From Salinimicrobium sediminilitoris (GTDB lineage: Bacteria > Bacteroidota > Bacteroidia > Flavobacteriales > Flavobacteriaceae): a DNA stretch of 64,000 nt. The stretch is from positions 124,001 through 188,000 of the forward strand of contig NZ_JAIVCC010000009.1 of the NCBI RefSeq assembly GCF_020866905.1. The letters run 5' to 3'. Below the pieces are notes generated by a model. The model saw only the letters and a list, made by a program, of their open reading frames with translations, did not search any database and had not been told where the DNA came from. The position numbers were made by a program, and so were the translations under genes. Shown one piece after another: positions 9,802 to 61,594 of this stretch. The first letter of the stretch is position 1, and each line of letters starts with the position of its first letter.

Positions 9802-10623
9802 ATGCCTATCAAAAATGTCATTTTTTTCCTGTTTTTTCTGAATGCCATTCCGGGGTTGGCTCAAAATAGTGCCTCTTCCAATGTTTCAACTTTTAAGATA
9901 GAAGCGCCTCAGCTCGATACCATAAGGACCATAAGGATTTATCTTCCGGCAGGCTATGAGACGTCACTGGAAAATTACCCGGTGTTGTACATGCATGATG
10001 CACAGAATCTCTTCGATACCACCACTGCATTTTCGGGAGAATGGAAAGTAGATGAATTTATGGATGCTCAAAAAGGGCAAAAAGTGATTGTGGTTGGGAT
10101 TGACCATGGGGATGAAAAGAGAATTGCAGAACTCACTCCCTTTCCAAATGAAAAATATGGCGGAGGGGAAGGTGCTGCCTATGTAGATTTTCTTGTTAAC
10201 ATCTTAAAGCCCCATATTGACAGTAACTTCCGCAGCCTTCCTGAAGCAGAAAACACTGCTATCTTGGGTTCTTCTCTGGGCGGCCTAATCTCTTTTTATG
10301 CCGCGTTTGAATATCCAGAAGTATTTGGCAAAGTAGGGGTTTCATCGCCTTCCTTCTGGTTTAGTGAAGAGATTTTCGGTTTTGCTGAAGCTTCAGAAAT
10401 CCCTAAAAATTCCCGCTTTTATTTTGTTGCGGGTACTGCCGAGAGTGAGGAAATGATATCCGATCTGTTAGAAATAAAACAGATCTTGCTGAAGAAAGAT
10501 CTTTCCGCAGAAAAGCTTCAAATAAAGATTGTGCAAGATGGGAAGCATAATGAAGTATTTTGGAGCCGGGAATTTCCTGAAGCATTTGAATGGCTTTTCC
10601 TGAACCCCGGGCGCGATCAATAA
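9802..10623 (+). CDS. Secreted alpha/beta-hydrolase, putative esterase (esterase D / Fes-like)
   Basis: About 273 aa. ATG 9802 is chosen because it opens a signal peptide (MPIKNVIFFLFFLNAIPGLAQ); a longer frame would overlap the previous gene. The fold is that of the putative-esterase family: RIYLPAGYE, YPVLYMHDAQNLFD, the nucleophile elbow GSSLGGLISFYAAFEYPEVFGKVGVSSPSFW, and a C-terminal DGKHNEVFW carrying the likely catalytic His. Substrates in this family include siderophore and carbohydrate esters; the one here is unknown. One copy of the dispersed palindrome overlaps its signal-peptide codons at 9810-9826. Confidence 0.87.
   Translation: MPIKNVIFFLFFLNAIPGLAQNSASSNVSTFKIEAPQLDTIRTIRIYLPAGYETSLENYPVLYMHDAQNLFDTTTAFSGEWKVDEFMDAQKGQKVIVVGIDHGDEKRIAELTPFPNEKYGGGEGAAYVDFLVNILKPHIDSNFRSLPEAENTAILGSSLGGLISFYAAFEYPEVFGKVGVSSPSFWFSEEIFGFAEASEIPKNSRFYFVAGTAESEEMISDLLEIKQILLKKDLSAEKLQIKIVQDGKHNEVFWSREFPEAFEWLFLNPGRDQ
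9810..9826. repeat. CAAAAATGNCATTTTTG palindrome copy inside signal-peptide codons
   Basis: CAAAAATGTCATTTTTT, one mismatch from the consensus, 22 bp after the stop of the previous gene and 8 bp into the esterase coding sequence. Confidence 0.55.
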
Positions 10624-10630
10624 TGTGGTT

Positions 10631-10647
10631 CAAAAATGGTATTTTTG
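10631..10647. repeat. CAAAAATGNCATTTTTG palindrome copy
   Basis: CAAAAATGGTATTTTTG, one mismatch from the consensus, 8 bp after the esterase stop codon in the gap before the ABC transporter. Confidence 0.7.
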
Positions 10648-10686
10648 GAGGTGCCCGAGTAGCAGTCTAATCAAAATCTCAACAAT

Positions 10687-12516
10687 TTGCCACGACCCCA
10701 ACGATCTCTGGAACCTAATAAATACAAATTTCGGGAGAGTTTTGTTTCCCTCAAATTTGTGCCGAGGTTCTTCAGGGAGATTAGAAAAGTCAATCCAAAA
10801 CTATTTTATCTCAATATTTTATGTCGGCTCATAAATGCTGTTCTCCCGGTTCTTATGCTGTGGGTAGGAAAATTGATCATCGACGAAGTTGTGCTGCAAA
10901 TTGGTGCCGATGTAAAGGATCTTGACCGACTTTGGGTTTTGGTCGCTGCCGAATTTTTGCTGGCGGTACTATCAGATCTCCTCAACCGCGGAATTAGCCT
11001 GATCGATGCGTTGCTTGGAGATCAATATTCGATCGATACCTCTGTGCGGATCATCAAGAAAACTTCAGAAGTTAATCTCGATGAACTGGAAGATTCAGAA
11101 TTCTACGATAAGCTGGAAAGGGCCAGGCAGCAAACTACGGGTAGAGTAGGTCTCATGTCAAATATCCTTACCCAGGCCGAAGATATTATTGTTATTGTTT
11201 CATTGTTGGTAGGAGTTGTGGCTTTTGAACCCTGGTTAATCATCCTGCTGGTGGTTTCGATCATTCCCACAATGATCAATGAAGTGAAATTCAGCGGTAC
11301 CAGTTACTCCCTTGCCCGAAGCTGGACACAGGAGCGGCGGGAACTTGATTACCTTCGATACGCCGGCGCCAGTGATGTAACTGCCAAGGAGGTGAAACTT
11401 TTTGGTCTTTCGGAATATATTGCCAACAGGTTCAAAGGATTATCCCAACGTTATTATGCGCAGAGCAAGCAGCTGGCAAAACAAAGAGCCGGCTGGGGCT
11501 CATTTTTTAACGTCATAGGAACTTCAGCTTATTACGCGGCCTATGTTCTTATTATTTTTAGAACGGTGGCAGGAATTTTTTCCCTGGGAGATCTTACCTT
11601 CCTTGCAGGGTCTTTTAACCGGCTTCGGCAAAAGCTGCAGGGATTCTTTACCCGCTTTACTATGATTACCGAAACCGCGCTTTACCTTCAGGATTACTTC
11701 GATTTTCTGGATCTGAGTTACCACAAACCGACTGCTGGCGGTCAACCCCTTCCGAAGGAGATCAAAGACGGATTTGAGTTTATTAATGTCGGATTCAAAT
11801 ATCCAAAGTCTGAAAGATGGGTAGTAAGAAATATTCATTTCAAGCTGAAGGCAGGGGAGAAACTGGCTTTTGTAGGAGAGAATGGTGCGGGGAAAACTAC
11901 TTTGATCAAACTCCTGCTGCAGTTTTACGAGCCAACAGAAGGAGAGATACGGCTGGATGGAATTCCTATTAAACAATATGATAGAACAGCGTATCAAAAA
12001 TATTTTGGAGTGATCTTTCAGGATTTTGTGAAGTTTGAGCTAACCTTAAGGGAGAACATAGCCATGGGAGAGATCACAGAGATCCAGGACCAGGAGAGAA
12101 TTGAAGGGGCGGCCTCAAAAAGTCTTGCAGACCAGGTGGTGAGTGAACTTCCTTTTGGATACGATCAACAGTTAGGGAAGCGGTTTAAGCAGGGGAAGGA
12201 TCTTTCGGGAGGACAGTGGCAAAAAATAGCCATTGCGAGGGCTTATATGAAAGATGCCGAAGTTCTTATTCTTGATGAACCAACCTCGGCCCTTGATGCG
12301 CGTGCCGAGACTGAGGCCTTTGACAGGTTTATTAAACTTACTGAAGGCAAAACTGCGGTGATCATTTCTCACAGATTCAGTACCGTAAGAATAGCCGACA
12401 GGGTCATGGTTTTAAAGGATGGAGCAGTCCTGGAGATTGGAACGCATGAGGAGCTCATGGAAAATAAACAGTTATACTCGGAACTTTTCAATCTACAAGC
12501 CGCAGCTTATAAATAA
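10687..12516 (+). CDS. ABC exporter half-transporter (fused permease and ATPase)
   Basis: 609 aa. An N-terminal six-helix membrane domain (~residues 35-330) is fused to an ATPase domain with Walker A GENGAGKTTLIKL, signature LSGGQWQKIAIARAYM, Walker B VLILDEPTSALD and H-loop ISHRFSTV. It is a homodimeric or heterodimeric exporter of the MsbA/LmrA type, probably for a lipid, peptide or drug. The start is TTG 10687: an in-frame stop lies at 10660-10662 and no ATG occurs before the first membrane helix. Substrate unknown. Confidence 0.9.
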   Translation: MPRPQRSLEPNKYKFRESFVSLKFVPRFFREIRKVNPKLFYLNILCRLINAVLPVLMLWVGKLIIDEVVLQIGADVKDLDRLWVLVAAEFLLAVLSDLLNRGISLIDALLGDQYSIDTSVRIIKKTSEVNLDELEDSEFYDKLERARQQTTGRVGLMSNILTQAEDIIVIVSLLVGVVAFEPWLIILLVVSIIPTMINEVKFSGTSYSLARSWTQERRELDYLRYAGASDVTAKEVKLFGLSEYIANRFKGLSQRYYAQSKQLAKQRAGWGSFFNVIGTSAYYAAYVLIIFRTVAGIFSLGDLTFLAGSFNRLRQKLQGFFTRFTMITETALYLQDYFDFLDLSYHKPTAGGQPLPKEIKDGFEFINVGFKYPKSERWVVRNIHFKLKAGEKLAFVGENGAGKTTLIKLLLQFYEPTEGEIRLDGIPIKQYDRTAYQKYFGVIFQDFVKFELTLRENIAMGEITEIQDQERIEGAASKSLADQVVSELPFGYDQQLGKRFKQGKDLSGGQWQKIAIARAYMKDAEVLILDEPTSALDARAETEAFDRFIKLTEGKTAVIISHRFSTVRIADRVMVLKDGAVLEIGTHEELMENKQLYSELFNLQAAAYK

Positions 12517-12602
12517 AATTGTGGAAAATCCTGAAAGTTAGGATAGATCCTTCTGAAAACCCGGGAAAAGAACTTCTGAAACTTTTTTCCAATTTTCTTC
12601 TT

Positions 12603-12617
12603 AAAAAATGCATTTTG
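12603..12617. repeat. Degenerate palindrome copy lacking the central base
   Basis: AAAAAATGCATTTTG, the repeat core without the central N, in the 150-bp gap between the ABC transporter and the 156-aa gene. Confidence 0.35.
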
Positions 12618-12668
12618 GAGTAACTTTTCTTTGAATTTACGTCAAACCTGTAAGTAGATTCCTAAAAG

Positions 12669-13139
12669 ATGAAGTTAGAGGAAGCCATTCAAAGGTTAGA
12701 CCGTTCTACGGGAGTGCCCGGCTCAGGAAAGTCAGTAAAAATTAAGCAGCGTTTCAGCAATATTTTGCAGGAGGTGAAGTATAAAGATCTACCTCCGGAA
12801 CAACTTGCACTTCTTGAACAGGAGCTAGATTCAATTTTTTCGGGAGTTGATTTGCAAGCTGAAAAAGTAGAAAAGTATTTACGATTACGCCTGGAAGGTT
12901 TGCTCAAGTTCCTCCGCAAGAAATTTGCTCTGGTGCCCGAAGGTTACTGCGCCATGAACGGAATGCGATTTGGACTTGCAGCCGGTTTTGTCCTACTATT
13001 AGTTCTTCTTGTTTTTATCGACTCGGTATTGAAATATTACAGTCCCCTTAGCGGTTTACTTTTAGGAGTGATGGTGGGTTCAATATGCGACCGAAGACGC
13101 AAAGCCAGAGGAAAGGCACTTCTTACCCGTATGGTTTAA
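12669..13139 (+). CDS. Hypothetical protein, helical N-terminus with membrane hairpin
   Basis: 156 aa. Residues 1-95 are charged and helical (EQLALLEQELDSIFSGVDLQAEKVEKYLRL). Two hydrophobic stretches follow (~102-117 and ~123-138), ending with a basic tail (CDRRRKARGKALL). It resembles small uncharacterised Bacteroidota membrane proteins; no domain is recognised. The LigT-like gene starts 10 bp later, so the two are probably co-transcribed. Confidence 0.65.
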   Translation: MKLEEAIQRLDRSTGVPGSGKSVKIKQRFSNILQEVKYKDLPPEQLALLEQELDSIFSGVDLQAEKVEKYLRLRLEGLLKFLRKKFALVPEGYCAMNGMRFGLAAGFVLLLVLLVFIDSVLKYYSPLSGLLLGVMVGSICDRRRKARGKALLTRMV

Positions 13140-13143
13140 TTCT

Positions 13144-13160
13144 CCAAAAATGTCATTTTC
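13144..13160. repeat. Dispersed palindrome overlapping a start codon
   Basis: CCAAAAATGTCATTTTC. The ATG in the palindrome is the start codon (13150) of the LigT-like gene, and the element begins 5 bp after the previous stop. Confidence 0.6.
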
Positions 13161-13689
13161 TAGAGCTCTTTATTTTGCAGCCATTCTTCCACCACCGGGA
13201 ATAAGGGAGCAGGTTCTTGAATTAAAACTGGAGATGAAAGAGAAGTTTGAGACTTCACATGCATTGAAATTACCAGCCCATATCACTCTTGTGCCCCCTG
13301 TATGGCTGGAAAATAAACAAGAACACCTATTTGTTGATGCTGTTAGAATTGTCACTGAAGAAACACCCTCTTTTCCTGTGGAACTGAAGGATTTTGGCCA
13401 TTTTGGACAGCGCGTAATATTTATCAATGCTATTAATCCCAGCCGTCTGAAGGAGTTTTATCAAAATCTCCTTAATTCCCTTACGGAATTTCTCCCCAAC
13501 AAGGGTGCAAAGTTGCATCCACATGTGACCATTGCAACAAGGGACCTTTCCAGGCAAAATTTTAATAAGGCATGGAAGGAGTATAAAGACAGATCTTTTT
13601 CAGTTGAATTTAATGCTGAATCCTTAACGATCTTCAAACACAATGGAAAAACCTGGAATATTCTTGAGACATTTTTGTTAAAGAAATAA
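13150..13689 (+). CDS. 2'-5' RNA ligase / cyclic phosphodiesterase family protein (LigT-like)
   Basis: 179 aa, the usual length for the 2H phosphoesterase superfamily. Both catalytic HxT motifs are present: HIT at residues 44-46 (LPAHITLVPP) and HVT at 125-127 (LHPHVTIATRD). Members open or form 2'-5' or cyclic phosphodiester bonds in RNA; the natural substrate in Bacteroidota is unknown. The start codon lies inside a palindromic repeat, which might affect translation. Confidence 0.88.
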   Translation: MSFSRALYFAAILPPPGIREQVLELKLEMKEKFETSHALKLPAHITLVPPVWLENKQEHLFVDAVRIVTEETPSFPVELKDFGHFGQRVIFINAINPSRLKEFYQNLLNSLTEFLPNKGAKLHPHVTIATRDLSRQNFNKAWKEYKDRSFSVEFNAESLTIFKHNGKTWNILETFLLKK

Positions 13690-13804
13690 GTCTGGATAAA
13701 CCTTTTTTCTCACCAGGAACCTGGTCTTAACAATATTTTATAAGCGGAGGACCCTATTTTCCATAGGATTCGGCTTAATTTAGAGGATCATCCAAAGTAT
13801 ATCC

Positions 13805-14944
13805 ATGAAAAATCCTCTACAAAATTTCTGGCTGTTACTTTTCCTGGGGAGCATGTTTACTGTTCTTCCTTTACAGGCACAGGATTCCCCTGAAGTAGAC
13901 ATAGGCGGGGCCTTACGCTTCAATTATAATCTTTCTTCCTGGAAACCCGAACAAAAGAACAGGGGCGGGGACTTTGGTTATGACATGTTCAGGATCAATG
14001 CAGTTGCTGCTTACCAGGGAATCTATGTCAATGCCGAATTCCGTCATTATTCCGAAGCTTTTGGAGGTGGGATGCTCAAACAGGGCTGGTTCGGATATAA
14101 ATTCAATGAGACTGAAGAACTGCAAGTCGGCCTTACACAAGTACCTTTTGGAATTCAGCAATACAATTCCCACAACTGGTTCTTTAACCTGGGTTATTAC
14201 ATGGGGCTGGAGGACGATCATGATATGGGAATAAAATACATGAACCTGGGTGAAAAATGGGAGTACCAAATAGCTTACTTTAAAAATGCCGAAGAACTAA
14301 GGTTCGGTGATGCTTCCGCGGTTTCTGCCAGCAGGTATTCGTATGACGTTGCCGGGAACAACAAAGAGGTGCACCAGGGAAATGTGAAATTGATGTATAA
14401 GTGGGGCGACAGCCTGCAGTCACGCCTTGGAACTTCTGCCCAATATGGCGGGCTCTACAACATCAACACTAAAGAAACCGGGGATCATTACGGGCTTGCC
14501 CTGCACTATGAAGCCGTTTACAAACTGTGGAACCTTAAAACCGAAGCCATGATCGTTGCCCATAATCCAGAAAATGAAGAAGACGCTTCAGAAGAGATCA
14601 TTACCATGGCTGCTTATGGCGCGCCTTATGAGGTCGCAGCCGATTTTAACCTGTATACCCTCGCTATCGCCCGCAATGTGCCGGTGAATTGGGGACCGGT
14701 TTCCAATTTGCAGTTCTACAATGATTTTGGATACATGCAGAAAAAGGAAAATTCCTTTGAAGATTCTTTTATGAATGTGACAGGAGTTTTGGTGACAGCG
14801 GGCAACCTTTATACATATATCGACTATGCCGCAGGATACAACCATTCCTGGTTGGGCGGCAATTTTGTGGACGATTTTGCCGCAGGAAATCCCAATGCCA
14901 AGTGGGAGGCAAGGTTCAATATTAATTTTGGGTACTATTTCTAA
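13805..14944 (+). CDS. Outer-membrane porin-like beta-barrel
   Basis: 379 aa with a signal peptide (MKNPLQNFWLLLFLGSMFTVLPLQAQ). The mature sequence alternates aromatic and polar residues in short strands (ALRFNYNLSSW, AYQGIYVNAEFRHYSEAF, LQVGLTQVPFGIQQYN) and ends with an aromatic residue (FNINFGYYF), both standard for barrel proteins recognised by BamA. It lies 29 bp before a BCCT transporter, suggesting that it forms the outer-membrane route for the same solute. The specific porin family is not resolved. Confidence 0.82.
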   Translation: MKNPLQNFWLLLFLGSMFTVLPLQAQDSPEVDIGGALRFNYNLSSWKPEQKNRGGDFGYDMFRINAVAAYQGIYVNAEFRHYSEAFGGGMLKQGWFGYKFNETEELQVGLTQVPFGIQQYNSHNWFFNLGYYMGLEDDHDMGIKYMNLGEKWEYQIAYFKNAEELRFGDASAVSASRYSYDVAGNNKEVHQGNVKLMYKWGDSLQSRLGTSAQYGGLYNINTKETGDHYGLALHYEAVYKLWNLKTEAMIVAHNPENEEDASEEIITMAAYGAPYEVAADFNLYTLAIARNVPVNWGPVSNLQFYNDFGYMQKKENSFEDSFMNVTGVLVTAGNLYTYIDYAAGYNHSWLGGNFVDDFAAGNPNAKWEARFNINFGYYF

Positions 14945-14973
14945 ACCCGGAACAACTTTAAAATTAAGAGACT

Positions 14974-24060: not shown

Positions 24061-25286
24061 GTTACAACCTTTTTGAAGTCTATGGTATAGAACTGGAGTA
24101 CATGATAGTGAACTCCGCTACCTACAAGGTAAATCCCATCGTAGACAAGCTATTTATAAAAAAAAGCGGCTCCATCACCTCAGATGTGGAGAACGGAAAA
24201 ATTGAGTGGAGCAATGAACTGGTTGCCCATGTGGTGGAACTTAAAACTAATGGCCCAACAGCCGATCTCGAAACGCTGGATGTCCTTTTTACTGAAAACG
24301 TAAGGGAGATGAACCGGCTTTTAAAAGATTTTGACAGCGAGCTTCTACCCACAGCTGCACATCCACTAATGAATCCCGATAGTGAGATGCAGCTATGGCA
24401 GCACAGTTACAGTAAGATCTACGCATTGTACAATCGTATTTTTGACTGTCGTGGCCATGGCTGGAGTAATGTACAGAGTATGCACATCAACCTGCCTTTT
24501 TCGGGAGATGCAGAATTTGAAAAACTTCATGCTGCCGTGCGAATCCTGCTGCCTATTATTCCGGGGTTGAGTGCCAGTTCACCTGTTTTTGAAGGGAAAA
24601 TCACAGGTTTTAAGGATACAAGGATGCATGTCTATAAAACCAATCAGAAAGAGATCCCGGAGATGACAGGAAAGGTGATCCCTGAACAGCTTTTTTCCAA
24701 ACAGGAATATCATAGCGGAATATTCGAGCCCATTAATAAAGCTATCAAGCCTCACGATACAGAAAATATTCTTGACCATCACTTCCTCAATTCCCGGGGG
24801 GCCATTGCCCGGTTTGATCGTGGCGCAATAGAAATAAGGGTTATTGATATACAGGAATGCCCAAAAGCCGATGTTGCTATCGCTGTGCTCGTTATTGAAG
24901 CATTAAAGCTGCTGGTTAGCGAGGAACTGGTTACTCTTGAGGATCAAAAGCAATGGCACGAAAATGACATTTTTGAGATCTTTAATGCTGTGATCAAAGA
25001 TGCTGAAGAAACGACTATTGAAAGTGAGAAGTTTGCTGCTATTTTTGATCTGCAGGCCCCTGTAAGTGTAAATCAAATCTGGGAAAAGATCTTTTCTATG
25101 GTAAAAGAGAATATTTCTGAAAAACATCAAAAAACTATAGAATTCCTGCTTCAAAATGGCAGCCTTTCGACAAGGATCCTGAATGCTTTGGGCGAAGATC
25201 CTTCAGAAGAAAACCTCCTGAAAGTCTATAAGGAACTGGGTCAATGTTTGGAGGAGAACAGGATGTTCGTGAGTAATAAACTGTAA
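24057..25286 (+). CDS. Glutamate-cysteine ligase family 2 (GCS2)-type amidoligase
   Basis: 409 aa. The opening YGIELEYMIV carries the metal-binding Glu pair of the GCS2 / glutamine-synthetase-like fold, and ARFDRGAIEIRVIDIQECPKADVAIA is the conserved arginine-containing block near residue 260. These enzymes form amide bonds between an amino acid gamma-carboxylate and an amine. Its tight overlap with the RLAN ATP-grasp gene and the downstream amidohydrolase suggest a dedicated pathway rather than ordinary glutathione synthesis. Substrates cannot be read from sequence. Confidence 0.88.
   Translation: MSYNLFEVYGIELEYMIVNSATYKVNPIVDKLFIKKSGSITSDVENGKIEWSNELVAHVVELKTNGPTADLETLDVLFTENVREMNRLLKDFDSELLPTAAHPLMNPDSEMQLWQHSYSKIYALYNRIFDCRGHGWSNVQSMHINLPFSGDAEFEKLHAAVRILLPIIPGLSASSPVFEGKITGFKDTRMHVYKTNQKEIPEMTGKVIPEQLFSKQEYHSGIFEPINKAIKPHDTENILDHHFLNSRGAIARFDRGAIEIRVIDIQECPKADVAIAVLVIEALKLLVSEELVTLEDQKQWHENDIFEIFNAVIKDAEETTIESEKFAAIFDLQAPVSVNQIWEKIFSMVKENISEKHQKTIEFLLQNGSLSTRILNALGEDPSEENLLKVYKELGQCLEENRMFVSNKL
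24961..24975. repeat. Palindrome-like core inside the GCS2 coding sequence
   Basis: AAAATGACATTTTTG, encoding NDIF. The core matches the dispersed repeat but may be chance in AT-rich coding DNA. Confidence 0.3.
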
Positions 25287-25318: not shown

Positions 25319-26014
25319 TTGAATCTATTTCTAACTTGTGAACACGCCGGTAATGAGATCCCGGAGAATTACGAAGAGTATTTTTCTAAAGCAGGGGAAG
25401 TGCTGGAAACCCACCGCGGCTATGACCCGGGTGCTTTAGATCTCTTTGGTCATTTGTCGCGCCTGGCAATTTTCAGTCAGGAGTACATGATAAGCAGACT
25501 CTTGGTCGAGCCAAACCGTTCTCTGGGGCACCCACAGTTATTTTCAGAATTTACTGTTGAACTTCCGGAGGCTCAAAAAGAGGAATTACTGGAAGAATTT
25601 TATTTGCCTTACAGGAATTTTGTTGAGGGGAGGATTGCAGCTTTAATTTCAGAAGGAAAGGAGATAGTACATATTTCTGTTCATACTTTCACTCCCGAAT
25701 TAAATGGGGAGATAAGAGATGCCGATATTGGTTTGTTGTTCGATCCCGCGAGAAAACCGGAAGAAGAGTTTTGTCAGGAATTTAAGGAACAGATCCTTCG
25801 GCAGAATAGTGATTTAAAAACCCGTTTCAACTATCCTTACCTGGGGGTGGATGATGGTTTCACTACTTATCTTAGAAAACGGTTTCCAGATCATTATGTA
25901 GGAATAGAGTTGGAAGTAAACCAAAAATATGTGCAGGAAAACAAAATGGAAAAGCGCCTCAAAAATGACATTTTTGAAGCGCTTTCTAAGGTTTTTCAAA
26001 GGGTCAATTCTTAG
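25319..26014 (+). CDS. N-formylglutamate amidohydrolase family protein
   Basis: 231 aa. LTCEHAGNEIPENY at the N-terminus, ETHRGYDPGALDLF, LVEPNRSLGHP, ISVHTFTP and the late GVDDGFTTYLRK match the family, which is a zinc hydrolase of the carboxypeptidase-like fold cleaving formyl or acyl amides. The start is TTG 25319: an in-frame TAA at 25313-25315 excludes any upstream ATG. It ends the RLAN/GCS2 cassette, 32 bp after GCS2, so it probably processes that product instead of acting in histidine breakdown. Its stop overlaps the OsmC stop. Confidence 0.87.
   Translation: MNLFLTCEHAGNEIPENYEEYFSKAGEVLETHRGYDPGALDLFGHLSRLAIFSQEYMISRLLVEPNRSLGHPQLFSEFTVELPEAQKEELLEEFYLPYRNFVEGRIAALISEGKEIVHISVHTFTPELNGEIRDADIGLLFDPARKPEEEFCQEFKEQILRQNSDLKTRFNYPYLGVDDGFTTYLRKRFPDHYVGIELEVNQKYVQENKMEKRLKNDIFEALSKVFQRVNS
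25951..25985. repeat. Long palindrome at the 3' end of the amidohydrolase gene
   Basis: Arms of 17 bp, AAAGCGCCTCAAAAATG (25951-25967) and CATTTTTGAAGCGCTTT (25969-25985), with one mismatch and a 1-nt centre. The centre is the dispersed CAAAAATGNCATTTTTG element; here it lies in coding DNA within ~30 bp of the convergent stops. Confidence 0.65.
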
Positions 26015-39517: not shown

Positions 39518-39536
39518 CCAAAAATGCCTTTTTTGG
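39518..39536. repeat. CAAAAATGNCATTTTTG palindrome copy
   Basis: CCAAAAATGCCTTTTTTGG, one mismatch from CCAAAAATGNCATTTTTGG, 12 bp after the treZ stop and upstream of the GH57 gene. Confidence 0.7.
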
Positions 39537-46160: not shown

Positions 46161-46178
46161 CCAAAAATGACATTTTAG
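46161..46178. repeat. CAAAAATGNCATTTTTG palindrome copy
   Basis: CCAAAAATGACATTTTAG, near-consensus, 8 bp after the malQ stop. Confidence 0.6.
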
Positions 46179-46221
46179 AATAATGAAAAAACCCGGAGAT
46201 TAATCCGGGTTTTTCATTATT
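46179..46221. terminator. Bidirectional terminator between malQ and the copper-protein gene
   Basis: A long inverted repeat: left arm 46179-46197 ending in ACCCGGA, right arm 46204-46221 beginning TCCGGGT, with one extra A in the left arm. Its flanks supply T-runs in both directions, fitting the convergent neighbours. Confidence 0.85.
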
Positions 46222-53120: not shown

Positions 53121-53135
53121 CAAAAATGCCTTTTC
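53121..53135. repeat. Degenerate palindrome copy
   Basis: CAAAAATGCCTTTTC, an incomplete match to the dispersed repeat, 3 bp past the cytochrome c stop. Confidence 0.4.
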
Positions 53136-53138
53136 GGG

Positions 53139-53677: not shown

Positions 53678-53682
53678 AGACA

Positions 53683-54326: not shown

Positions 54327-54343
54327 CAAAAATGTCATTTTTA
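54327..54343. repeat. CAAAAATGNCATTTTTG palindrome copy
   Basis: CAAAAATGTCATTTTTA, one mismatch, between the convergent rrf2-like and ackA stops. Confidence 0.7.
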
Positions 54344-54352
54344 AGAGGTGTT

Positions 54353-55540
54353 CTATAGCATTGCCAAAGTTTGTTTGGCGATCTCCAGCTCTTCATTGGT
54401 AGGGATCACAAGGATCTTTACTGCTGAAGTTGCCTTGCCAATATCCCTTATTTCCTTGGAACGTACGCTGTTCTTTTCTTCATCCAGTTCGAGCCCCAGG
54501 TATTCCATATCACGGGAAACAAGCTTTCTAATTACATCTGAATTTTCTCCAATTCCTGCAGTAAAGACCACAGCATCAAGACCGTTCATAGCTGCGGCGT
54601 AAGCACCGATATATTTTTTTATGCGGTAAGCATTCATGTCGAGGGCTAGTTGACATTCCCTGTTTCCTTTTTCTGCCTCGTCTTCAATATCTCTAAGGTC
54701 ACTGTAACCGGTAAGGCCCAGCATTCCGCTTTTGTGATGGAGTAGATCACTCACTTCTTTAGCCGAATATCCCAGTTGCTCGATCATATAAAATATCACC
54801 GATTGGTCAATATCTCCACTACGGGTTCCCATGATCAATCCGTTAACAGGACCGAAGCCTAGGGTGTGGTCAATACTTTTCCCATCTTTCACAGCCGTCA
54901 TACTACACCCATTCCCAAGATGAACAGTAACGAGTTTGGATTTTTCCTTTTTGAGGTACTCATTAGCTTTTTCTGAAACATACTTATGACTTGTCCCATG
55001 GAAGCCGTACACCTGAATTTTCTCCTTTTCATAGAATTCATTTGGAATAGCATACTTGCTGGCGTGTGAAGGAATACTCTGGTGGAAAGCTGTGTCAAAA
55101 ACAGCCACCTGGACTGCTTTAGGAAAAATCTCCTCGGCTACTTCAATTCCCTTTAAGTTTGGTGGATTATGAAGTGGTGCCAGGGAAAATAATTCTTTGA
55201 TCTTTTCCTTTACTCTGTCATCAATAACAATGGTATCCGAAAAACTTGCACCGCCATGAACAACGCGATGACCAATGGCAGGAATATCGGCAGGATCCTT
55301 TATCACTCCGTAATTGCTGTGCATAAGGTGTTTTGTCACCTCTTTTAGAGCTACGGAATGATCCTGAATTTCCATTTCTTCGGAAGTTGAATATGCTTCC
55401 GATTTATAATGAAGTTTTCCTGAAGCCTGTCCAATCCTTTCAACCAGCCCCGAAGCTAAAACTTCTTCTGAAGGCATATTGATCAATTGAAATTTTAGGG
55501 ATGAACTCCCGGAGTTAATTATAAGTATATTCTTATTCAT
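54353..55540 (-). CDS. ackA: Acetate kinase
   Basis: 395 aa, standard length. NSGSSSLKFQLI at the N-terminus, GHRVVHGG, FDTAFHQSIP, YGFHGTSHKYV, HLGNGCSMTAVKDGKS and FTAGIGENS are diagnostic of the acetate kinase/ASKHA fold. It converts acetyl phosphate and ADP to acetate and ATP. It lies downstream of pta on the same strand, separated by a 107-bp heptamer-repeat spacer. Confidence 0.98.
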   Translation of the reverse strand: MNKNILIINSGSSSLKFQLINMPSEEVLASGLVERIGQASGKLHYKSEAYSTSEEMEIQDHSVALKEVTKHLMHSNYGVIKDPADIPAIGHRVVHGGASFSDTIVIDDRVKEKIKELFSLAPLHNPPNLKGIEVAEEIFPKAVQVAVFDTAFHQSIPSHASKYAIPNEFYEKEKIQVYGFHGTSHKYVSEKANEYLKKEKSKLVTVHLGNGCSMTAVKDGKSIDHTLGFGPVNGLIMGTRSGDIDQSVIFYMIEQLGYSAKEVSDLLHHKSGMLGLTGYSDLRDIEDEAEKGNRECQLALDMNAYRIKKYIGAYAAAMNGLDAVVFTAGIGENSDVIRKLVSRDMEYLGLELDEEKNSVRSKEIRDIGKATSAVKILVIPTNEELEIAKQTLAML

Positions 55541-55554
55541 ATTTCTATTTTAGA

Positions 55555-55648
55555 ATCAAGAGCCAAGAACCAAGAGCCAAGACTTTTAATTAGATTATTT
55601 TTCCTTAAACCTTAAACCTTAAACCTTAAACCTTAAACCTTAAACCTT
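55555..55648. repeat. 7-bp periodic repeat array between pta and ackA
   Basis: Six full tandem copies of CCTTAAA run from 55603 to 55644 plus a partial copy. The register of 7 bp extends left through ATCAAGA, GCCAAGA, ACCAAGA, GCCAAGA, CTTTTAA, TTAGATT, ATTTTTC. The whole block lies in the spacer between the pta stop and ackA start. Confidence 0.9.
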
Positions 55649-57741
55649 TATAAGCCCTGAGCCTGAATTGCGGTAAGAATTACTGTATTGAAAACATCAT
55701 CAACAGTACAGCCACGGCTAAGGTCGTTCACAGGTTTGTTTAACCCCTGTAGCATTGGTCCAATCGCCAAAGCGCCTGTTTCCCTTTGCACGGCTTTATA
55801 GGTATTGTTCCCGGTGTTAAGGTCGGGGAAAATAAGTACGCTTGCCTGCCCTGCAACTTCAGATCCCGGTAATTTACTTTTACCTATGGTGCGATCAACT
55901 GCGGCGTCATATTGTATTGGTCCTTCAATTTTAAGATCGGGACGTTTTTTCCTCACAATTTCAGTTGCTTCCCGAACCCTGTCAACATCTTCTCCTTTCC
56001 CGGAACTTCCGGAAGAGTAGGAGAGCATTGCGATCTTGGGTTCAATTCCGAAGGCCTTACTACTTTCCGCAGAAGAGATACAGATCTCTGCAAGCTCTTC
56101 GGCCGTTGGATTAGGATTAATAGCACAATCTCCAAAAACTGAAACCCGGTCTTCAAGACACATAAAGAACACCGAAGAAACTACAGAAACTCCCGGTTTG
56201 GTCTTAATGAACTGCAGTGCCGGTCTAATGGTGTGCTGCGTAGTGTGAGCCGCACCCGAAACCATTCCGTCCGCGTGCCCTTTATGGATCATCATAGTCC
56301 CAAAATAGGAAACATCACTCATAAGATCACGTGCGATATCCATGTTGATATTCTTATGTTTTCGCAGTTCGTAAAAGGTCTTTACGTAATCGTCGAAATA
56401 TTCAGATTTTGTAGGGTTAATGATATTCAGCTTTTCTAAATCAATTGGCAAAGCCAGGTTCATGATCATTTTCCTGATCTCTTCCTCATCCCCGAGAATA
56501 GTAAGATCTACAATATCCATTGTGATAAGACGGGAAGCAGCAGTAAGGATTCGTTCATCTGTACCTTCGGGAAGAACTATATGTTTACGTTGCTGTTGGG
56601 CACGTTTTACAAGGCTGTACTGGAACATTCTAGGCGTAATGCCACTGGGTTGAAGCCCGGCAAAACGCTCTATTAGTGGATCCATATTAACGTACTTTTC
56701 AAACGTGCTTATTGAAGTTTCGATCTTCTGCGTACTGTCGGCGTAAATATTTGAGTTAATGGCACCAACTTTATTAGTCACATTAAAGGTTCCTTCTTCC
56801 ACAGAAATGATAGGAACCACTTGTGAAAGACCTTCAATAAGTTTAATAATAGAATCTTCGGGAATCAAACCTCCTGTGAGGATAATTCCTGAAATTCGCG
56901 GATAATTACTGGAAATATGCGCCTGTAGCGCCCCCAGAATTATATCTGCCCTGTCACCCGGAGTGATCACCAGGCTTTCATTTTTAAGATGCTTCAGGTA
57001 ATTGCGTAGCTGCATAGCTCCCACATTAAAGCTTCCCGATTGGTTATCAAGGAATTCCTCTCCAAAAAGCACTTTTCCGTCAAGAGCTTCCACGATCTCC
57101 TTTAGCGTTGGGTTTGCCAAAGTATCTATTAAAGGAAGCGCAAAAACAGCAACATCATCTGGCAGGAATTCTCTCATTCCATTGGTTGCAATGGTAAGAT
57201 TGGCAAGTTCTATCTTATTGCTTACCATTGCCATTACGCGAACGTCCTTACTAATAAAGGTTTGATAAGCCATTTGAAGGCTTCCCATTAATCCTTCTTT
57301 AGTTTTGCTACGGCCACTCGCAATTATAATTACCGGTAAGCCAAGGTTCTTTGCAATATTGACATTCTCATCAAATTCAAAGACACTGCCTTCTCCCGAA
57401 AAATCACTGCCCTCAACAAGGACAAAATCAAAAGCATCCTCGAGTTTTTTGTATTTTCTAATGATGGTATCAATGATCTCCCCCGATTTTCCCTCATTGC
57501 GCTTTTGAATAACTTCGCTCCTGGTATAAGCATAAGCATCTTCATAAGACATAGGAAGATCAAAATATTTTAAAACCGTATCAATATGGTTATCGAGGTT
57601 TCCCGGCTTTTCTTCATTAATAATAGGTCGAAAATAGGCTACCTTTACAGTCTTTCCTAACAAAGCTCTCATTAGTCCCAGGGAGATAAGGGATTTTCCA
57701 CTGTTTGGTTCTAAAGTCGCTATATAAAGTCCTTTGTTCAT
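55648..57741 (-). CDS. pta: Phosphate acetyltransferase
   Basis: 697 aa, the long form. An N-terminal P-loop-like domain (YIATLEPNSGKSLISLGLMRALLG, residues ~4-30) and DRTGG region are followed by the catalytic PTA_PTB domain (~370-695), with FVSKPTLE-type region replaced here by RMFQYSLVKRAQQQRKHIVLPEGTDERIL and ending DLSRGCTVDDVFNTVILTAIQA. It makes acetyl phosphate from acetyl-CoA. With ackA it forms the acetate-producing pathway. A -7 box lies 20 bp upstream. Confidence 0.97.
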   Translation of the reverse strand: MNKGLYIATLEPNSGKSLISLGLMRALLGKTVKVAYFRPIINEEKPGNLDNHIDTVLKYFDLPMSYEDAYAYTRSEVIQKRNEGKSGEIIDTIIRKYKKLEDAFDFVLVEGSDFSGEGSVFEFDENVNIAKNLGLPVIIIASGRSKTKEGLMGSLQMAYQTFISKDVRVMAMVSNKIELANLTIATNGMREFLPDDVAVFALPLIDTLANPTLKEIVEALDGKVLFGEEFLDNQSGSFNVGAMQLRNYLKHLKNESLVITPGDRADIILGALQAHISSNYPRISGIILTGGLIPEDSIIKLIEGLSQVVPIISVEEGTFNVTNKVGAINSNIYADSTQKIETSISTFEKYVNMDPLIERFAGLQPSGITPRMFQYSLVKRAQQQRKHIVLPEGTDERILTAASRLITMDIVDLTILGDEEEIRKMIMNLALPIDLEKLNIINPTKSEYFDDYVKTFYELRKHKNINMDIARDLMSDVSYFGTMMIHKGHADGMVSGAAHTTQHTIRPALQFIKTKPGVSVVSSVFFMCLEDRVSVFGDCAINPNPTAEELAEICISSAESSKAFGIEPKIAMLSYSSGSSGKGEDVDRVREATEIVRKKRPDLKIEGPIQYDAAVDRTIGKSKLPGSEVAGQASVLIFPDLNTGNNTYKAVQRETGALAIGPMLQGLNKPVNDLSRGCTVDDVFNTVILTAIQAQGL

Positions 57742-57760
57742 AGTTTTGTAAATTCTAATG

Positions 57761-57768
57761 CAAAAGTA
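57761..57768 (-). promoter_or_regulatory. Candidate -7 box for pta-ackA
   Basis: TACTTTTG on the minus strand, an exact TAnnTTTG match, 20 bp upstream of the pta ATG. Confidence 0.4.
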
Positions 57769-57883
57769 AGGCTTATAAAAAATCCTGACCTGCGAGACAG
57801 GTTAAAAAGTCGTAAAAATCTGATGAAAATCACCTGAAGCTGGACCAATTCGTCCTTTATTTTTCCTGCGGAAGAATTTCCTT

Positions 57884-57900
57884 TAAAAATGCCGTTTTAG
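57884..57900. repeat. Degenerate palindrome copy
   Basis: TAAAAATGCCGTTTTAG, two or three changes from the consensus, ~30 bp past the nhaA stop in the gap before pta. Confidence 0.4.
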
Positions 57901-57929
57901 AGAAGTAAGTTTTGCTGAAGTATTCTTCT

Positions 57930-59324
57930 TTATCCTGAAGCTTCTGAACGTTTTTTAGTGAGAACAGATTTTTTTGAATGCCTCTTTTTCTTCTTTTGGA
58001 TCTCTTTGTTGCTTATCCATAGAAGGTAAGTATATCCAATAATACCTGCCAAAAGTGAAGCCGAAAGAATCCCGATTTTTGCCTGTACAAGAAACTCCTC
58101 ATTTACAAAGGCAAGTTCTGTAATAAAGAGGCTCATTGTGAATCCAATGGCAGCGAGAAAACCCACACCATAAATATGCTTCCATTTAACTCCTTTTGGG
58201 AGGGAAGAAATTTTTAACCATACCATAAGTCTGGTGAAAAAAACCACTCCAAAGAATTTTCCAATGATCAACCCCAGGATGATACCTAATGTTACCGGAC
58301 TAAAAAAGAAGCCCAGGGAAGAGGCATCAATAGTCACACCTGCATTGGCAAATGCGAAAAGAGGTAAAACAACAAAACTTACAAATGGTTGCAAGGCGTG
58401 TTCAAGACGTTGAAGGGGAGGGGTTGCATCTTTTGTGAGCGAGGTGAATTTTTCAATAGTATTGGTAATGGATTCCTCCCTGTGTTCCTCCTTAATACCC
58501 TCTTCTTTCATTAAAGCCTTAATATTATATGATAACAAGCGTACTTTCCGGAGAAAGAGAGGAGGATTGATCTTCTTATTAACGGGAATGGCAAAGGCAG
58601 CCAACACTGCCGCGATTGTTGCATGTACTCCCGAAAGAAGTATAGCCAGCCAGAGCCCGCCTATTCCCATGATTGCATAAAAGGCCGTATGTCGAATTCC
58701 AATCTGGTTGGCGACGATCAGGATCAGGAAGAACATGGCTGCAATTGCCAGGCTCAAAAAGGAAAGATCTGCAGTATAAAATAATGCGATTACTATCACT
58801 GCTCCCAAATCGTCTACAATGGCAATTGCAGTGAGGAAAACCTTTAGAGAAAGTGGCACCCGGTTCCCCAGCAAATACAGGATGCCCAGCGCAAAGGCAA
58901 TATCTGTAGCCATGGGAATTCCCCATCCTGTTATTGATTCTAGTCCTCCGTTGAAATAATAATAAATGAGGGCGGGCATTACCATTCCACCTATTGCCGC
59001 CGCTACCGGAAGCACAGATTTTCGAAACCCGGCAAGCTCCCCCTGGGTGATCTCCCGTTTTAGTTCAAGTCCTACCAGAAAGAAAAACATCGACATCAAC
59101 CCGTCATTGATCCAGTGCAGCAGGGTTTTCCTTATCACCATATCATTGATCCCTAAATAGATATTCTGTTTCCAGAAATTGTGGTAAGTTTCTGCCAGTG
59201 GGGAATTGGCGAAGATCACAGCGAGAATGGCAGAGAAAATAAGTAGCAGGCCTACAGAAGTCTGTTTTTCAATAAAGCCCTTAATAGGCAGCAACAGGTA
59301 TAGGTCAAGATGCGATTTTCTCAT
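57930..59324 (-). CDS. nhaA: Na+/H+ antiporter NhaA
   Basis: 464 aa with ~12 membrane helices. Conserved segments: MFFFLVGLELKREITQGEL, MPALIYYYFN, PMATDIAFALGILYLLGNRVP, VFLTAIAIVDDLGAVIVIALFYT (the Asp pair that binds Na+) and VLPLFAFANAGVTID. It expels Na+ in exchange for protons, useful in saline habitats. A lysine-rich tail (IQKKKKRHSKKSVLTKKR) is longer than in E. coli NhaA. Confidence 0.96.
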   Translation of the reverse strand: MRKSHLDLYLLLPIKGFIEKQTSVGLLLIFSAILAVIFANSPLAETYHNFWKQNIYLGINDMVIRKTLLHWINDGLMSMFFFLVGLELKREITQGELAGFRKSVLPVAAAIGGMVMPALIYYYFNGGLESITGWGIPMATDIAFALGILYLLGNRVPLSLKVFLTAIAIVDDLGAVIVIALFYTADLSFLSLAIAAMFFLILIVANQIGIRHTAFYAIMGIGGLWLAILLSGVHATIAAVLAAFAIPVNKKINPPLFLRKVRLLSYNIKALMKEEGIKEEHREESITNTIEKFTSLTKDATPPLQRLEHALQPFVSFVVLPLFAFANAGVTIDASSLGFFFSPVTLGIILGLIIGKFFGVVFFTRLMVWLKISSLPKGVKWKHIYGVGFLAAIGFTMSLFITELAFVNEEFLVQAKIGILSASLLAGIIGYTYLLWISNKEIQKKKKRHSKKSVLTKKRSEASG

Positions 59325-59447
59325 AAATTATTAATTTGATGCGATGTAAGAACATTACCTGAGAATAATAATCTCTTAAGTTATTTTTTTAATTCCATAT
59401 AGAAGATGATGAATATCAGATGATTATTTTTTTTTGATAGAAATTCC

Positions 59448-60182
59448 ATGAAAGACCTATTTTCCTCTCATTCTGAAGACTATTCCCGATACCGTCCCAC
59501 GTATCCGGCAGAACTGTATAATTTTATGTGGCAGCTTTGCCAAACAAGAGACCGGGCCCTAGACTGTGGTGCGGGTAACGGACAGGTAGCAGGGGAGCTG
59601 GCAACTTTTTTCCAGGAGGTTTATGCGACCGATGTTAGTATTAATCAGCTGTCACAGGCGGTGCAGAAGCCAAATATTCATTACACCAAACAATCTGCGG
59701 AAAATATGGTGTTTCCCAATGATCATTTTGATCTTGTAACTGTTGGACAGGCGGTGCACTGGTTCAATTTTGAAAAATTTTATTCTGAGGTAAAAAGGGT
59801 ACTAAAAAAAGATGCTGTAATAGCCATTTTTGGATACTCACTTTTTAGAAGCAATCCCGAAACAGATAAAATCATCAGGCACTTCTACGATAATATAATA
59901 GGTTCTTTTTGGCAACCCGAACGACGTTACCTGGAGGAGAAATATCAAACCATTCCCTTTCCTTTTGAAGAAATTGAAACTCCGGGTTTTGAAATGAAGC
60001 AGCAATGGAGTTTTGAAAGGCTACTGGGATATCTCAACACCTGGTCGGCAGTGAAAGCTTTTGAAAAGGAGAAGGATGAAAATCCGGTGGAGCTGGTGAA
60101 GAAAGAACTTGGGGAGAGTTTTGGCGAGGTGGGGGAAGTGAATTTTCCGGTGCTGCTTCGGGTGGGCAGGAATTCAGAATAA
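59448..60182 (+). CDS. Class I SAM-dependent methyltransferase
   Basis: 244 aa. The SAM-binding motif I is ALDCGAGNGQVAGELATFF (~38-56), followed by VYATDVSINQLSQA, QSAENMVFPNDHFDLVTVGQAVHWFNFEKF and RVLKKDAVIAIFGYS. It resembles the UbiE/YafE-like small-molecule methyltransferases (SHSEDYSRYRPTYPAELY is typical of the N-terminus). The substrate is unknown. It stands alone, divergent from nhaA. Confidence 0.88.
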   Translation: MKDLFSSHSEDYSRYRPTYPAELYNFMWQLCQTRDRALDCGAGNGQVAGELATFFQEVYATDVSINQLSQAVQKPNIHYTKQSAENMVFPNDHFDLVTVGQAVHWFNFEKFYSEVKRVLKKDAVIAIFGYSLFRSNPETDKIIRHFYDNIIGSFWQPERRYLEEKYQTIPFPFEEIETPGFEMKQQWSFERLLGYLNTWSAVKAFEKEKDENPVELVKKELGESFGEVGEVNFPVLLRVGRNSE

Positions 60183-60227
60183 AACTTCCGCAGAAATTTT
60201 TATCGGGAATATTCCGGAACGGGGTGT

Positions 60228-60244
60228 CAAAAATGGCATTTTTG
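60228..60244. repeat. Perfect CAAAAATGNCATTTTTG palindrome
   Basis: CAAAAATGGCATTTTTG, an exact 17-bp match, 46 bp after the methyltransferase stop, upstream of ychF. Confidence 0.8.
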
Positions 60245-60319
60245 GAAGGTTTTTTTCGGCTGGTTTTCAGGGTAGATTTCCGAAGAAATTGAGCTGCTCA
60301 AAATTCCAATTCATATAAC

Positions 60320-60327
60320 TATATTTG
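60320..60327 (+). promoter_or_regulatory. Candidate -7 box for ychF
   Basis: TATATTTG, an exact TAnnTTTG match, 30 bp upstream of the ATG at 60358. Confidence 0.45.
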
Positions 60328-60357
60328 CAGCCGCTAAAGAGCATCAAAATTTATTAT

Positions 60358-61452
60358 ATGAAAGCCGGAATTGTAGGACTACCCAACGTAGGAAAATCAA
60401 CTTTATTCAACTGTCTCTCAAACGCAAAAGCGCAGAGTGCCAACTTCCCGTTTTGTACCATTGAACCCAACATTGGAGTGGTGAACGTGCCCGATAAGCG
60501 CCTGGAAAAACTGGAATCCCTTGTAAATCCTGAAAGAGTAATGCCTGCTACCGTAGAGATCGTGGATATTGCCGGACTTGTAAAAGGAGCGAGTAAAGGG
60601 GAAGGTCTTGGAAACCAATTCCTCGGAAATATTCGTGAAACTGATGCAATTCTTCATGTTTTAAGGTGTTTTGAGAACGACAATATCGTGCACGTGGATG
60701 GAAATATAAATCCGGTGAGAGATAAGGAGACCATTGATATGGAGCTGCAGCTTAAGGATCTTGAAACGGTCGAAAAGAAGCTGGAAAAGGTGAAGCGGGC
60801 TGCGAAAACCGGGAATAAGGAAGCTCAAAAAGAAGAAGCAGCTTTATTGAAAGTAAAGAGTGGACTTGAAGCGGGAAATTCAGTAAGAGCAATTGATCTT
60901 ACTGAAGAAGAAAGACAGGAATTTATTAAGCCACTACAGTTCATTACAGATAAACCTGTGATGTACGTGTGTAATGTTAACGAAACCGATGCAGTTTCGG
61001 GAAATGAACATGTTGATAAGGTAAAAGAGTCTGTCAAAGGTGAAGGCGCCGAGGTTCTGGTACTGGCAGTAGGAACAGAAGCCGATATCACTGAACTTGA
61101 CGACTATGAAGAGCGTAAAATGTTCCTTCAGGATATTGGGCTGGATGAGCCGGGATCGGCTAAACTTATTCGTGGAGCCTATAGTCTTCTTAATCTACAA
61201 ACTTATTTTACTGCCGGGGTCAAAGAAGTAAGAGCCTGGACAATTCCCGTAGGAGCCACAGCGCCGCAAGCGGCAGGTGTGATCCATACCGACTTTGAAA
61301 AAGGTTTTATTCGTGCCGAAGTTATCGCGTATGACGACTACGTGAATTACGGAAGTGAAGCAAAAGTGAAGGAAGCCGGGAAAATGAGGGTAGAAGGGAA
61401 GGAATATATCGTAAAAGATGGGGATGTAATGCACTTTAGGTTCAACGTGTAA
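60358..61452 (+). CDS. ychF: Redox-regulated ATPase YchF
   Basis: About 364 aa from ATG 60358 ([18 protein letters not shown]); an in-frame start at 60325 would add 11 residues and overlap the -7 box region. The G1 loop is GLPNVGKST, the switch segment [21 protein letters not shown], and a TGS domain closes the protein ([18 protein letters not shown]). YchF is an Obg-like P-loop ATPase that associates with ribosomes and oxidative stress. It is monocistronic. Confidence 0.97.
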
Positions 61453-61500
61453 TTAGATTTGAGATATTAGTATTGAGTATTGAGACTTAATACGAGATTG

Positions 61501-61531
61501 GACCTCACAGGTTTTTTAAACCTGTGAGGTC
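61501..61531. terminator. Perfect hairpin, terminator or repeat element
   Basis: GACCTCACAGGTTT (61501-61514) and AAACCTGTGAGGTC (61518-61531) form a perfect 14-bp stem with a 3-nt loop, followed by CTTTTC. Such ACCTGTGAGGT-type hairpins are frequent between genes in Flavobacteriia and probably act as terminators as well as repeats. Confidence 0.8.
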
Positions 61532-61559
61532 TTTTCAATTTTAGGAAACTTCAACGTTG

Positions 61560-61594
61560 AATACCTTCAAAAAATGACATTTTTTGAAGGTATT
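61560..61594. repeat. Extended copy of the dispersed palindrome
   Basis: Perfect 17-bp arms around one central A; the inner 19 bp are CAAAAAATGACATTTTTTG, with ATACCTT and AAGGTAT outside. It is the longest intergenic copy in the window. Confidence 0.85.

Follow-up and report, generated by a model that had tools for sequence, protein, structure and literature searches.

A short odd palindrome, CAAAAATGNCATTTTTG, recurs behind genes and inside them in a 64,000-nucleotide stretch of the Salinimicrobium sediminilitoris genome (contig NZ_JAIVCC010000009.1, positions 124,001 to 188,000; hereafter the window), and the question raised by this locus is what kind of element it is. An initial annotation, made from the letters of the window, had proposed a DNA-level role for it as a site for a dimeric protein, a nucleoid organiser or a mobile repeat. 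At the DNA level the palindrome spans about 40 bp and has two-fold symmetry. Among the readings weighed here, a DNA-uptake signal was judged to be the best fit; that the palindrome is a putative self-DNA uptake or transformation signal of Salinimicrobium, accumulated by molecular drive, is a proposition that we regard as evenly balanced. We do not class it as a DNA uptake sequence (DUS), because its symmetric form is atypical and uptake itself is something that we infer.

The statistics given for S. sediminilitoris (G000, 3.59 Mb) are from 864 kb, namely positions 1-800000 of contig C10 together with the window, and those for the relative G241 are from 500 kb of a single-contig genome of 3.51 Mb. 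The other G-numbers also denote relatives, with G484 being S. marinum. Gene calls are crude ones of our own, based on a codon score or on the longest open reading frame (ORF), and were made without annotation.

Sequence and phylogenetic range of the palindrome

The 17-mer CAAAAATGNCATTTTTG has 17 matches in the window at up to three mismatches where 1.60 were expected, and its 13-nt core AAAATGNCATTTT has 13 matches at up to one mismatch where 1.06 were expected; none of 100 shuffles scored as high in either case. The genome-wide count of the 13-mer that the initial annotation had called for gives 225 exact cores in G000 against 2 for the reversed-word control. At up to two mismatches, 109 copies of the 17-mer were found in the 864-kb sample, whereas 100 palindromes with permuted arms average 1.2 copies with a maximum of 6. 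A de novo palindrome search with 6-nt arms and spacers of 0-12 nt ranked AAAATG-N1-CATTTT top in both G000 (58 against 0.7) and G241 (73 against 0.55), and in G241 the 73 perfect cores outnumber all one-mismatch variants taken together (63). The number of matches depends sharply on the spacer, with 109 at a spacer of 1 nt, 20 and 12 at spacers of 0 and 2 nt, and one to three each at spacers of 3-11 nt. The single half-site was rejected as the unit, as unpaired half-sites (157 of 291) are about threefold in excess of permuted words (average 54, 95th percentile 109), far below the excess of the palindrome itself. No description of the motif was found among the literature matches listed, exact-string search included, and viral contigs gave no match to two strict exact patterns, looser forms not having been tried.

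The motif extends beyond its core on both sides and reads roughly as an A-tract, SS, TYYC, AAAAATG, N, CATTTTT, GRRA, SS and a T-tract. When the copies are aligned on the core with orientations pooled, the preferences are Y at position 0, T at -2, C or G at -3 and -4, and A-rich sequence from -5 to -12. Scored separately for 210 copies, the left flank and the right flank show the same preferences; at offset 9, for example, 65% of the left flanks have A and 60% of the right flanks have T. This profile is common to 95 coding copies that lie more than 80 nt from any stop and to 91 intergenic copies (G000 and G241 together), being somewhat weaker in the coding copies, where AT-rich flanks are also present on both sides. 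Because coding and intergenic copies have the same profile, the extended motif belongs to the DNA as such rather than to terminators.

Exact cores in the 12 genomes of the genus number 225, 34, 19, 118, 460, 121, 164, 207, 0, 201, 424 and 191, with 0-4 for the reversed control; among these, G000 has 225, G007 34, S. marinum 19, G490 0 and G491 201. The genomes with 164 and 0 copies are 75% and 74% complete respectively. Nine of the twelve contain 118-460 exact cores, while the other genera sampled contain 0-20: among 249 genomes of the family, three of which are Salinimicrobium, no other genus exceeds 20, and among 247 genomes of the phylum no other exceeds 14. The 17-mer at up to two mismatches reaches 126 copies per Mb in G000, 202 in G241 and 46 in G007. 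S. marinum has 12.5 per Mb, and two other genera of the family have 0 and 5; what is said of other genera is based on core counts and on 200 kb from each of two genomes. No different palindrome that could serve as a local ‘dialect’ was found in S. marinum (320 kb) or in these two genera (200 kb each). In a tree of ychF, eight copy-rich species form one clade (92/94) and G488, G484, G007 and G490 fall outside it in no settled order, although this is a poorly resolved tree of a single gene whose three outgroup rows do not lie on one side. The slight excess of cores in S. marinum (19 against 4 for the control, and 4 against 0.7 in 320 kb) could be due to relics or to composition.

Conservation of the window's copies was followed through one syntenic 60-kb region in seven relatives, six of them palindrome-bearing and the seventh S. 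marinum (Table 1). The alignment of orthologous intergenic regions that the initial annotation had suggested finds the intergenic copies conserved in position amid diverged flanks, with the centre base differing between species, and S. marinum has no copy in its syntenic 60 kb. Coding copies vary between species through point substitutions in the orthologues compared.

These alignments bear on the idea that the palindrome is a mobile repeat moved by a transposase, either of the repetitive extragenic palindrome and bacterial interspersed mosaic element (REP/BIME) type or of the miniature inverted-repeat transposable element (MITE) type. A repeat of this kind would account for the high copy number and for the preference for gaps behind stops, and genes of the REP-associated tyrosine transposase (RAYT) type (PF01797) were matched in nine of the 12 genus genomes. 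REP and BIME, too, are palindromic and lie close to the ends of genes (for REP, according to the available part of PMC12306157). The coding copies with clear orthologues within the genus, however, are ungapped substitutions, the intergenic copies stay in place, and the number of RAYT genes is unrelated to that of copies, with none in G491 (201 copies) and four in G007 (34 copies). In addition, the REP-like palindromes of G000, which have a RAYT-type match a few kb away, are other sequences, and the palindrome differs from REP/BIME accompanied by RAYT in having 60 of 109 copies in genes, in being conserved in place and in showing no insertion. Mobility, which the initial annotation had entertained, appears from these comparisons to be largely refuted and is in our view very improbable.

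Placement relative to genes and hairpin formation

The 109 sampled copies consist of 60 in coding sequence, 28 in tandem gaps, 15 in convergent gaps and six in divergent gaps, and 12 of the 60 coding copies are no more than 30 nt from where a called gene ends or begins its last stretch. By length, intergenic DNA is nevertheless the denser, with 49 copies in 98.7 kb against 60 in 762 kb of coding DNA. Among the gaps, the density per 10 kb is 10.8 in convergent, 4.4 in tandem and 2.9 in divergent ones. Within tandem and convergent gaps, 31 of the 43 copies are at most 60 nt from the adjoining stop, where the density is about fourfold that found farther away (per 10 kb, 9.2 against 2.1 in tandem and 18.5 against 4.0 in convergent gaps). 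The initial annotation had placed the palindrome nearly always just 3' of stop codons and had proposed that distances to stops be mapped; the mapping bears this out for the intergenic copies, which concentrate near stops, but not for the copies overall, more than half of which are coding.

Operators of a global transcription factor with a large regulon would also be palindromic, degenerate and more frequent in intergenic DNA. Against such operators stand the divergent, promoter-bearing gaps, which have the lowest density of all, the 60 copies located within genes by our crude calls, and the neighbouring genes, which show no functional set at 14 sites viewed by eye. A regulator beside promoter-type sites was also considered and rejected, as nothing coherent was seen at these 14 sites. 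We therefore think a regulon improbable.

The initial annotation had described the palindrome as a poor RNA hairpin. This description fits the 95 coding copies, whose outer arms pair at 228 of 760 positions against 235 in shuffles and so show no excess. It fits less well for the 91 intergenic copies, where the outer arms pair at 328 of 728 positions against an average of 264, a value that none of 1000 shuffles reached. The excess is also present in the 28 convergent-gap copies among the 91, while ten divergent-gap copies have no clear excess, and G000 taken by itself shows a weaker intergenic effect (z 2.2). Some copies are predicted to have long stems followed by T-tails, and some resemble textbook bidirectional terminators; the copy at C10:461041 is one example predicted from its sequence. 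The intergenic pairing excess therefore suggests that some of the copies at gene ends have become parts of hairpins resembling bidirectional terminators.

It might then be asked whether the palindrome as a whole is a set of hairpin terminators or of 3' RNA elements whose inner stem is conserved; the intergenic pairing and the long T-tailed stems would be evidence for this. The same motif is nevertheless found in the 95 coding copies far from stops without any pairing excess, on which grounds an RNA hairpin was rejected as the general role, and ten further copies lie in divergent gaps, again without a clear excess. No Rfam family was matched at its gathering score in the window. That termination is the primary function seems to us hardly probable.

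Effects on proteins, competence genes and the likeness to uptake sequences

Copies inside genes are about ten times as frequent as synonymous codon choice would produce, with 54 counted against an average of 5.35 (largest 10) over 20 synonymous codon shuffles. Forty of the 54 lie in a single frame, in which they read K-N-x-I-F. In G241, the peptide K-N-[DGAV]-I-F occurs 19 times in 144,316 aa, where the commonest permuted peptide occurs three times, and 15 of the 19 have the exact codons (0.64 expected). It occurs four times in 258,376 aa of G000, all four with the exact codons (0.11 expected). No occurrence was found in S. marinum (93,359 aa), in G007 (73,028 aa), in further sets of 61,691 and 59,967 aa, or in 185,269 aa from 54 loci of other, mostly Flavobacteriaceae genomes, where the commonest permuted peptide occurs eight times; permuted peptides average 0.26-0.52 per 100,000 aa. 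The 23 occurrences include six distinct genes with a clear orthologue within the genus, and all within-genus rows are ungapped at the site; several relatives have other residues there, for example KNPSF, NSSQF, ASGEF, KSDDF or NDDAF in place of KNDIF. The other peptide-bearing genes have either no orthologue in the compared DNA or low-identity matches, some of them gapped. These comparisons indicate that something acting on the DNA overrode the protein sequence, clearly so in G241, the richer in copies of the two genomes sampled at depth, and weakly in G000. An effect of uptake sequences on the proteome was reportedly described by Findlay and Redfield.

The DNA-level role put forward at the outset is supported in its general form, since coding copies share the motif without a pairing excess and exceed the synonymous null ten-fold, and since the centre base varies from species to species. 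An uptake signal was absent from the candidates then named. The comparison with the DUS of Neisseriaceae and the uptake signal sequences (USS) of Pasteurellaceae is nevertheless the closest that we can offer. These are likewise clade-specific and occur both inside and outside genes, with a higher density outside (according to the accessible portions of PMC3630211, PMC7811141 and PMC1852404). They are also built into gene-end terminators (in excerpts of PMC1852404 and PMC3630211), as is predicted for the palindrome from its sequence. As far as these excerpts go, USS have AT-rich flanking segments similar to those around the palindrome, and the palindrome too fits the molecular drive invoked for DUS and USS. 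An effect on proteins is another shared feature, clear in G241 and weak in G000. Putative DUS k-mers have been listed for Riemerella and Flavobacterium, which the paper concerned counts in the same family, and R. columbina favours its own DNA through a mark that is not established; in contrast to the palindrome, these k-mers are A-rich words that were chosen by k-mer count, with their function left open, and are not palindromic (PMC7965970, in part). No established self-DNA tag in Bacteroidota was found among the literature matches listed.

If the palindrome is an uptake signal, a two-fold symmetric receptor or uptake factor would prefer DNA bearing the site, and incoming site-bearing alleles from relatives would replace site-less ones. 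Through this replacement the sites would accumulate by molecular drive until gene function brought the process to a halt, and once competence was lost, accumulation would cease and the sites would decay. In Neisseria, uptake sequences are read by type IV pilins, whose use is not known from Bacteroidota, and the receptor of the palindrome would for this reason be a different protein.

In view of the likeness to uptake sequences, competence genes were compared across the genus. ComEC (PF03772) is an open frame of 648-690 aa in all ten palindrome-bearing genomes, including G007, and DprA (PF02481) is found in the same ten genomes in frames of 339-393 aa. The only ComEC match of S. marinum is a 68-position remnant with four stops. 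Its comEC gene (L252:1133-2064), which adjoins the same kind of upstream lipoprotein gene as comEC of G000, is split among several reading frames and interrupted by stops; measured against the G000 protein, it lacks two large segments, at about residues 108-263 and 370-583. The dprA gene of S. marinum (L254:267-1343) is open in the middle, where a 281-aa frame contains an uninterrupted family match, while the first ~57 and last ~40 residues are read in a different frame, and the first of these two pieces contains a stop. Judged by these reading frames, comEC of S. marinum is certainly broken and dprA probably so, the loss of dprA being less certain because its middle domain is open and the family match there is free of stops. 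Riemerella anatipestifer loses the capacity for transformation when transposons insert in comEC or dprA (reported in the part of PMC8459023 available). The state of both genes suggests that natural transformation has likely been lost in S. marinum, and this species, the only nearly complete Salinimicrobium genome with a broken comEC, has a copy number near background. In the 74%-complete G490, ComEC has a weak 57-position match below the cut-off and DprA has no match. A fuller version of the proposal would make the palindrome both the first uptake sequence of Bacteroidota and the first with a palindromic form. Its two-fold symmetric receptor would have no relation to type IV pilins, and molecular drive would have carried the sites across the genomes of part of the genus, with the sites rewriting coding sequence to K-N-x-I-F and being reused in terminators; we put this version as a whole slightly below an even chance.

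Several points weigh against an uptake signal. Known uptake sequences are asymmetric single words, of about 9-12 nt in DUS and USS, whereas the palindrome is symmetric with a spacer of exactly 1 nt, and no precedent for a palindromic uptake sequence is known to us. Self-DNA tags of this kind are established in Neisseriaceae and Pasteurellaceae and are not known outside these two proteobacterial families, while the palindrome is from Bacteroidota and is likened to them from its sequence; nor is any Salinimicrobium known to be competent. Copy number is below that of Neisseria or Haemophilus, with hundreds of palindromes against the hundreds to thousands of DUS or USS. In G000, one-mismatch copies (104) outnumber the perfect ones (58), and the four K-N-[DGAV]-I-F peptides are no more numerous than the commonest permuted peptide, which also occurs four times. 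The correlation with competence consists of one nearly complete genome, that of S. marinum, together with the incomplete G490, and since S. marinum falls outside the copy-rich clade in a poorly resolved tree, it may never have had the sites. The family PF07075/NamZ, which we take to be the DUF1343 protein (RA0C_RS09020) of Riemerella, is open in all 12 genomes, those of S. marinum and G490 included. This DUF1343 gene is reported to be essential in Riemerella (PMC8459023, in the part available).

The main rival is a binding site for a nucleoid-associated or chromosome-organising protein specific to the genus, which as a symmetric dimer or tetramer would cover about 40 bp of DNA flanked by A-tracts. 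It would do so at several hundred sites, behind genes and sparing promoters. Many of the features described above would be expected of such a site, namely the strict two-fold symmetry around a single centre nucleotide, the fixed spacing, the A/T tracts and C/G pairs that flank the core on either side whether a copy is coding or intergenic, the positions conserved between species, and the neighbouring genes that form no coherent set (14 sites, by eye). There is also a structural parallel, as matS is an odd palindrome with a one-base centre that is read by a symmetric protein. The sites of MatP (matS) and Noc and the parS sites are dispersed as the palindrome is, but the palindrome has many more copies than any of them is known to have. 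Its distribution along the chromosome differs as well, since in contrast to matS it is not confined to one domain in the sample: intervals between copies over the 800 kb of C10 fit an exponential distribution (coefficient of variation 0.94, Kolmogorov-Smirnov p 0.76), so that spacing is near random, and the counts in 25 stretches of 20 kb from G241 give a variance-to-mean ratio of 1.35 (p 0.12 against uniform). No macrodomain pattern was therefore seen in the 800 kb of C10 or the 500 kb of G241.

A single ParB match (PF02195) was found in 11 of the 12 genomes and none in the incomplete G490, hence there is no Noc-like paralogue and no second ParB-family protein that would parallel the Noc system. 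HU/IHF-family counts are 2-3 and do not track copy number. A Noc-like ParB paralogue and an extra HU/IHF gene were accordingly rejected, as their counts do not match the copy-number pattern, which removes these two candidates only. Rewriting many coding positions would moreover need strong selection at each site, and a nucleoid protein leaves the broken competence gene of S. marinum unexplained. The nucleoid organiser of the initial annotation has thus gained no support from the macrodomain analysis or from ParB and HU/IHF genes, and we consider it a doubtful, though still serious, alternative to the uptake signal.

If the palindrome is indeed an uptake signal, it would represent a third independent origin of self-DNA tags, this time with a symmetric site, and a fresh test case for the theory of molecular drive, for which related species spanning ~20 to 460 copies, one of them with a broken competence gene, could be used. 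It would also imply that DNA receptors of a new class exist and that gene flow among marine Flavobacteriaceae meets a barrier. The alternative of a nucleoid-protein site would be no less unexpected, since a DNA-binding protein would then be reshaping protein-coding sequence at many positions.

Copies in the window and neighbouring repeats

The copies listed in the initial annotation were recovered within 0-9 nt of where it had placed them, with the exception of the one at 12603. The sequence at that position, AAAAAATGCATTTTGG, is present, but it is even-centred and gives no match at up to three mismatches. Two further positions, 25951 and 61560, proved to be the starts of longer inverted repeats in which the 17-mers begin at 25960 and 61569. 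Three-mismatch matches absent from that list were also found at 1408, 42458, 44547 and 44941. The copy at 46162 was scored as coding because of a spurious small ORF.

Table 1. Palindrome copies in the window, their setting, and mismatches to the 17-mer at the orthologous position in relatives
Position	Mismatches	Setting	Relatives
6835..6851 (degenerate)	2	52 nt past stop; matching outer arms CATCC/GGATG	No counterpart in four relatives with alignable flanks
9810..9826	1	Signal-peptide region of coding sequence, K-N-V-I-F	2 in G489, at least 4 in other aligned relatives; protein-level substitutions
10631..10647	1	8 nt past stop codon	1-2 in G489, G241, G486, G485, G487; 7 in S. marinum
13145..13161	2	Directly past stop codon, overlapping next called start codon	1-4 in six relatives
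24959..24975	1	Within coding sequence	1 in G489; 2-6 in six other species, point substitutions without indel
25951..25985 (17-mer 25960-25976)		Extended inverted repeat in last codons of coding sequence, L-K-N-D-I-F-E	Perfect in 6/6 palindrome-bearing relatives compared; S. marinum encodes KYSIF at that spot
39519..39535	1	14 nt past stop codon	1-2 in G489, G241, G486, G491; 4 in G485; 6 in G487
46162..46178	1	9 nt past stop of GH77 gene (Pfam); adjoined by a separate inverted repeat with T-run at 46187-46214	0-2 in G489, G241, G486, G491; 8 in G485; 7 in S. marinum; none seen in G487 alignment
53121..53137 (weak)	3	Intergenic gap	Similar sequence only in G489 among four relatives aligned
54327..54343	1	Convergent gap, 13 nt past stop of Rrf2-family gene (Pfam)	At most 2 in 6/6 palindrome-bearing relatives compared; 8 in S. 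marinum
57884..57900 (weak)	3	Intergenic gap	Similar sequence in G489, sole relative aligned there
60228..60244	0 (perfect 17-mer)	Tandem gap upstream of ychF	At most 2 in G489, G241, G486, G491; not in G485, G487, G484; flanks diverged
61560..61594 (17-mer 61569-61585)		Downstream of ychF; 17+1+17 perfect inverted repeat	0-1 in G486, G491, G241, G492; 4 in G489, G487, G485

A further inverted repeat was found in the window at 61501-61531, between ychF and the palindrome at 61569. It is a perfect 14-nt repeat, GACCTCACAGGTTT/AAACCTGTGAGGTC, whose right arm is partly kept at the same place in several relatives. Another palindrome, TCACAGG-N9-CCTGTGA, occurs four times in the G241 sample.

In G000, the interval C10:667850-669640 contains a tandem array of ~225-bp units with the REP-like palindromes GGGCTTTAGCCC, CCACTGGCTTTAGCCAGTGG and CCTCCGCCTAAAGGCGGAGG. 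A weak RAYT-type match, at C10:662561, is ~5 kb away.

Two contigs of G007, C15 (L056, 15.1 kb) and C8 (L057, 10.2 kb), consist of small-gene arrays of low G+C (33%) in which long repeated elements lie between the genes. The elements are ~130-140 nt long and of the type CAACATCGGTTAACGAG...GTTAACCGG..CGTTG, and by eye they are integron-cassette-like. Many of them contain the palindrome, with 17 copies on C15 and ten on C8 at up to two mismatches, and 14 of the 34 exact cores of G007 are located on these two contigs.

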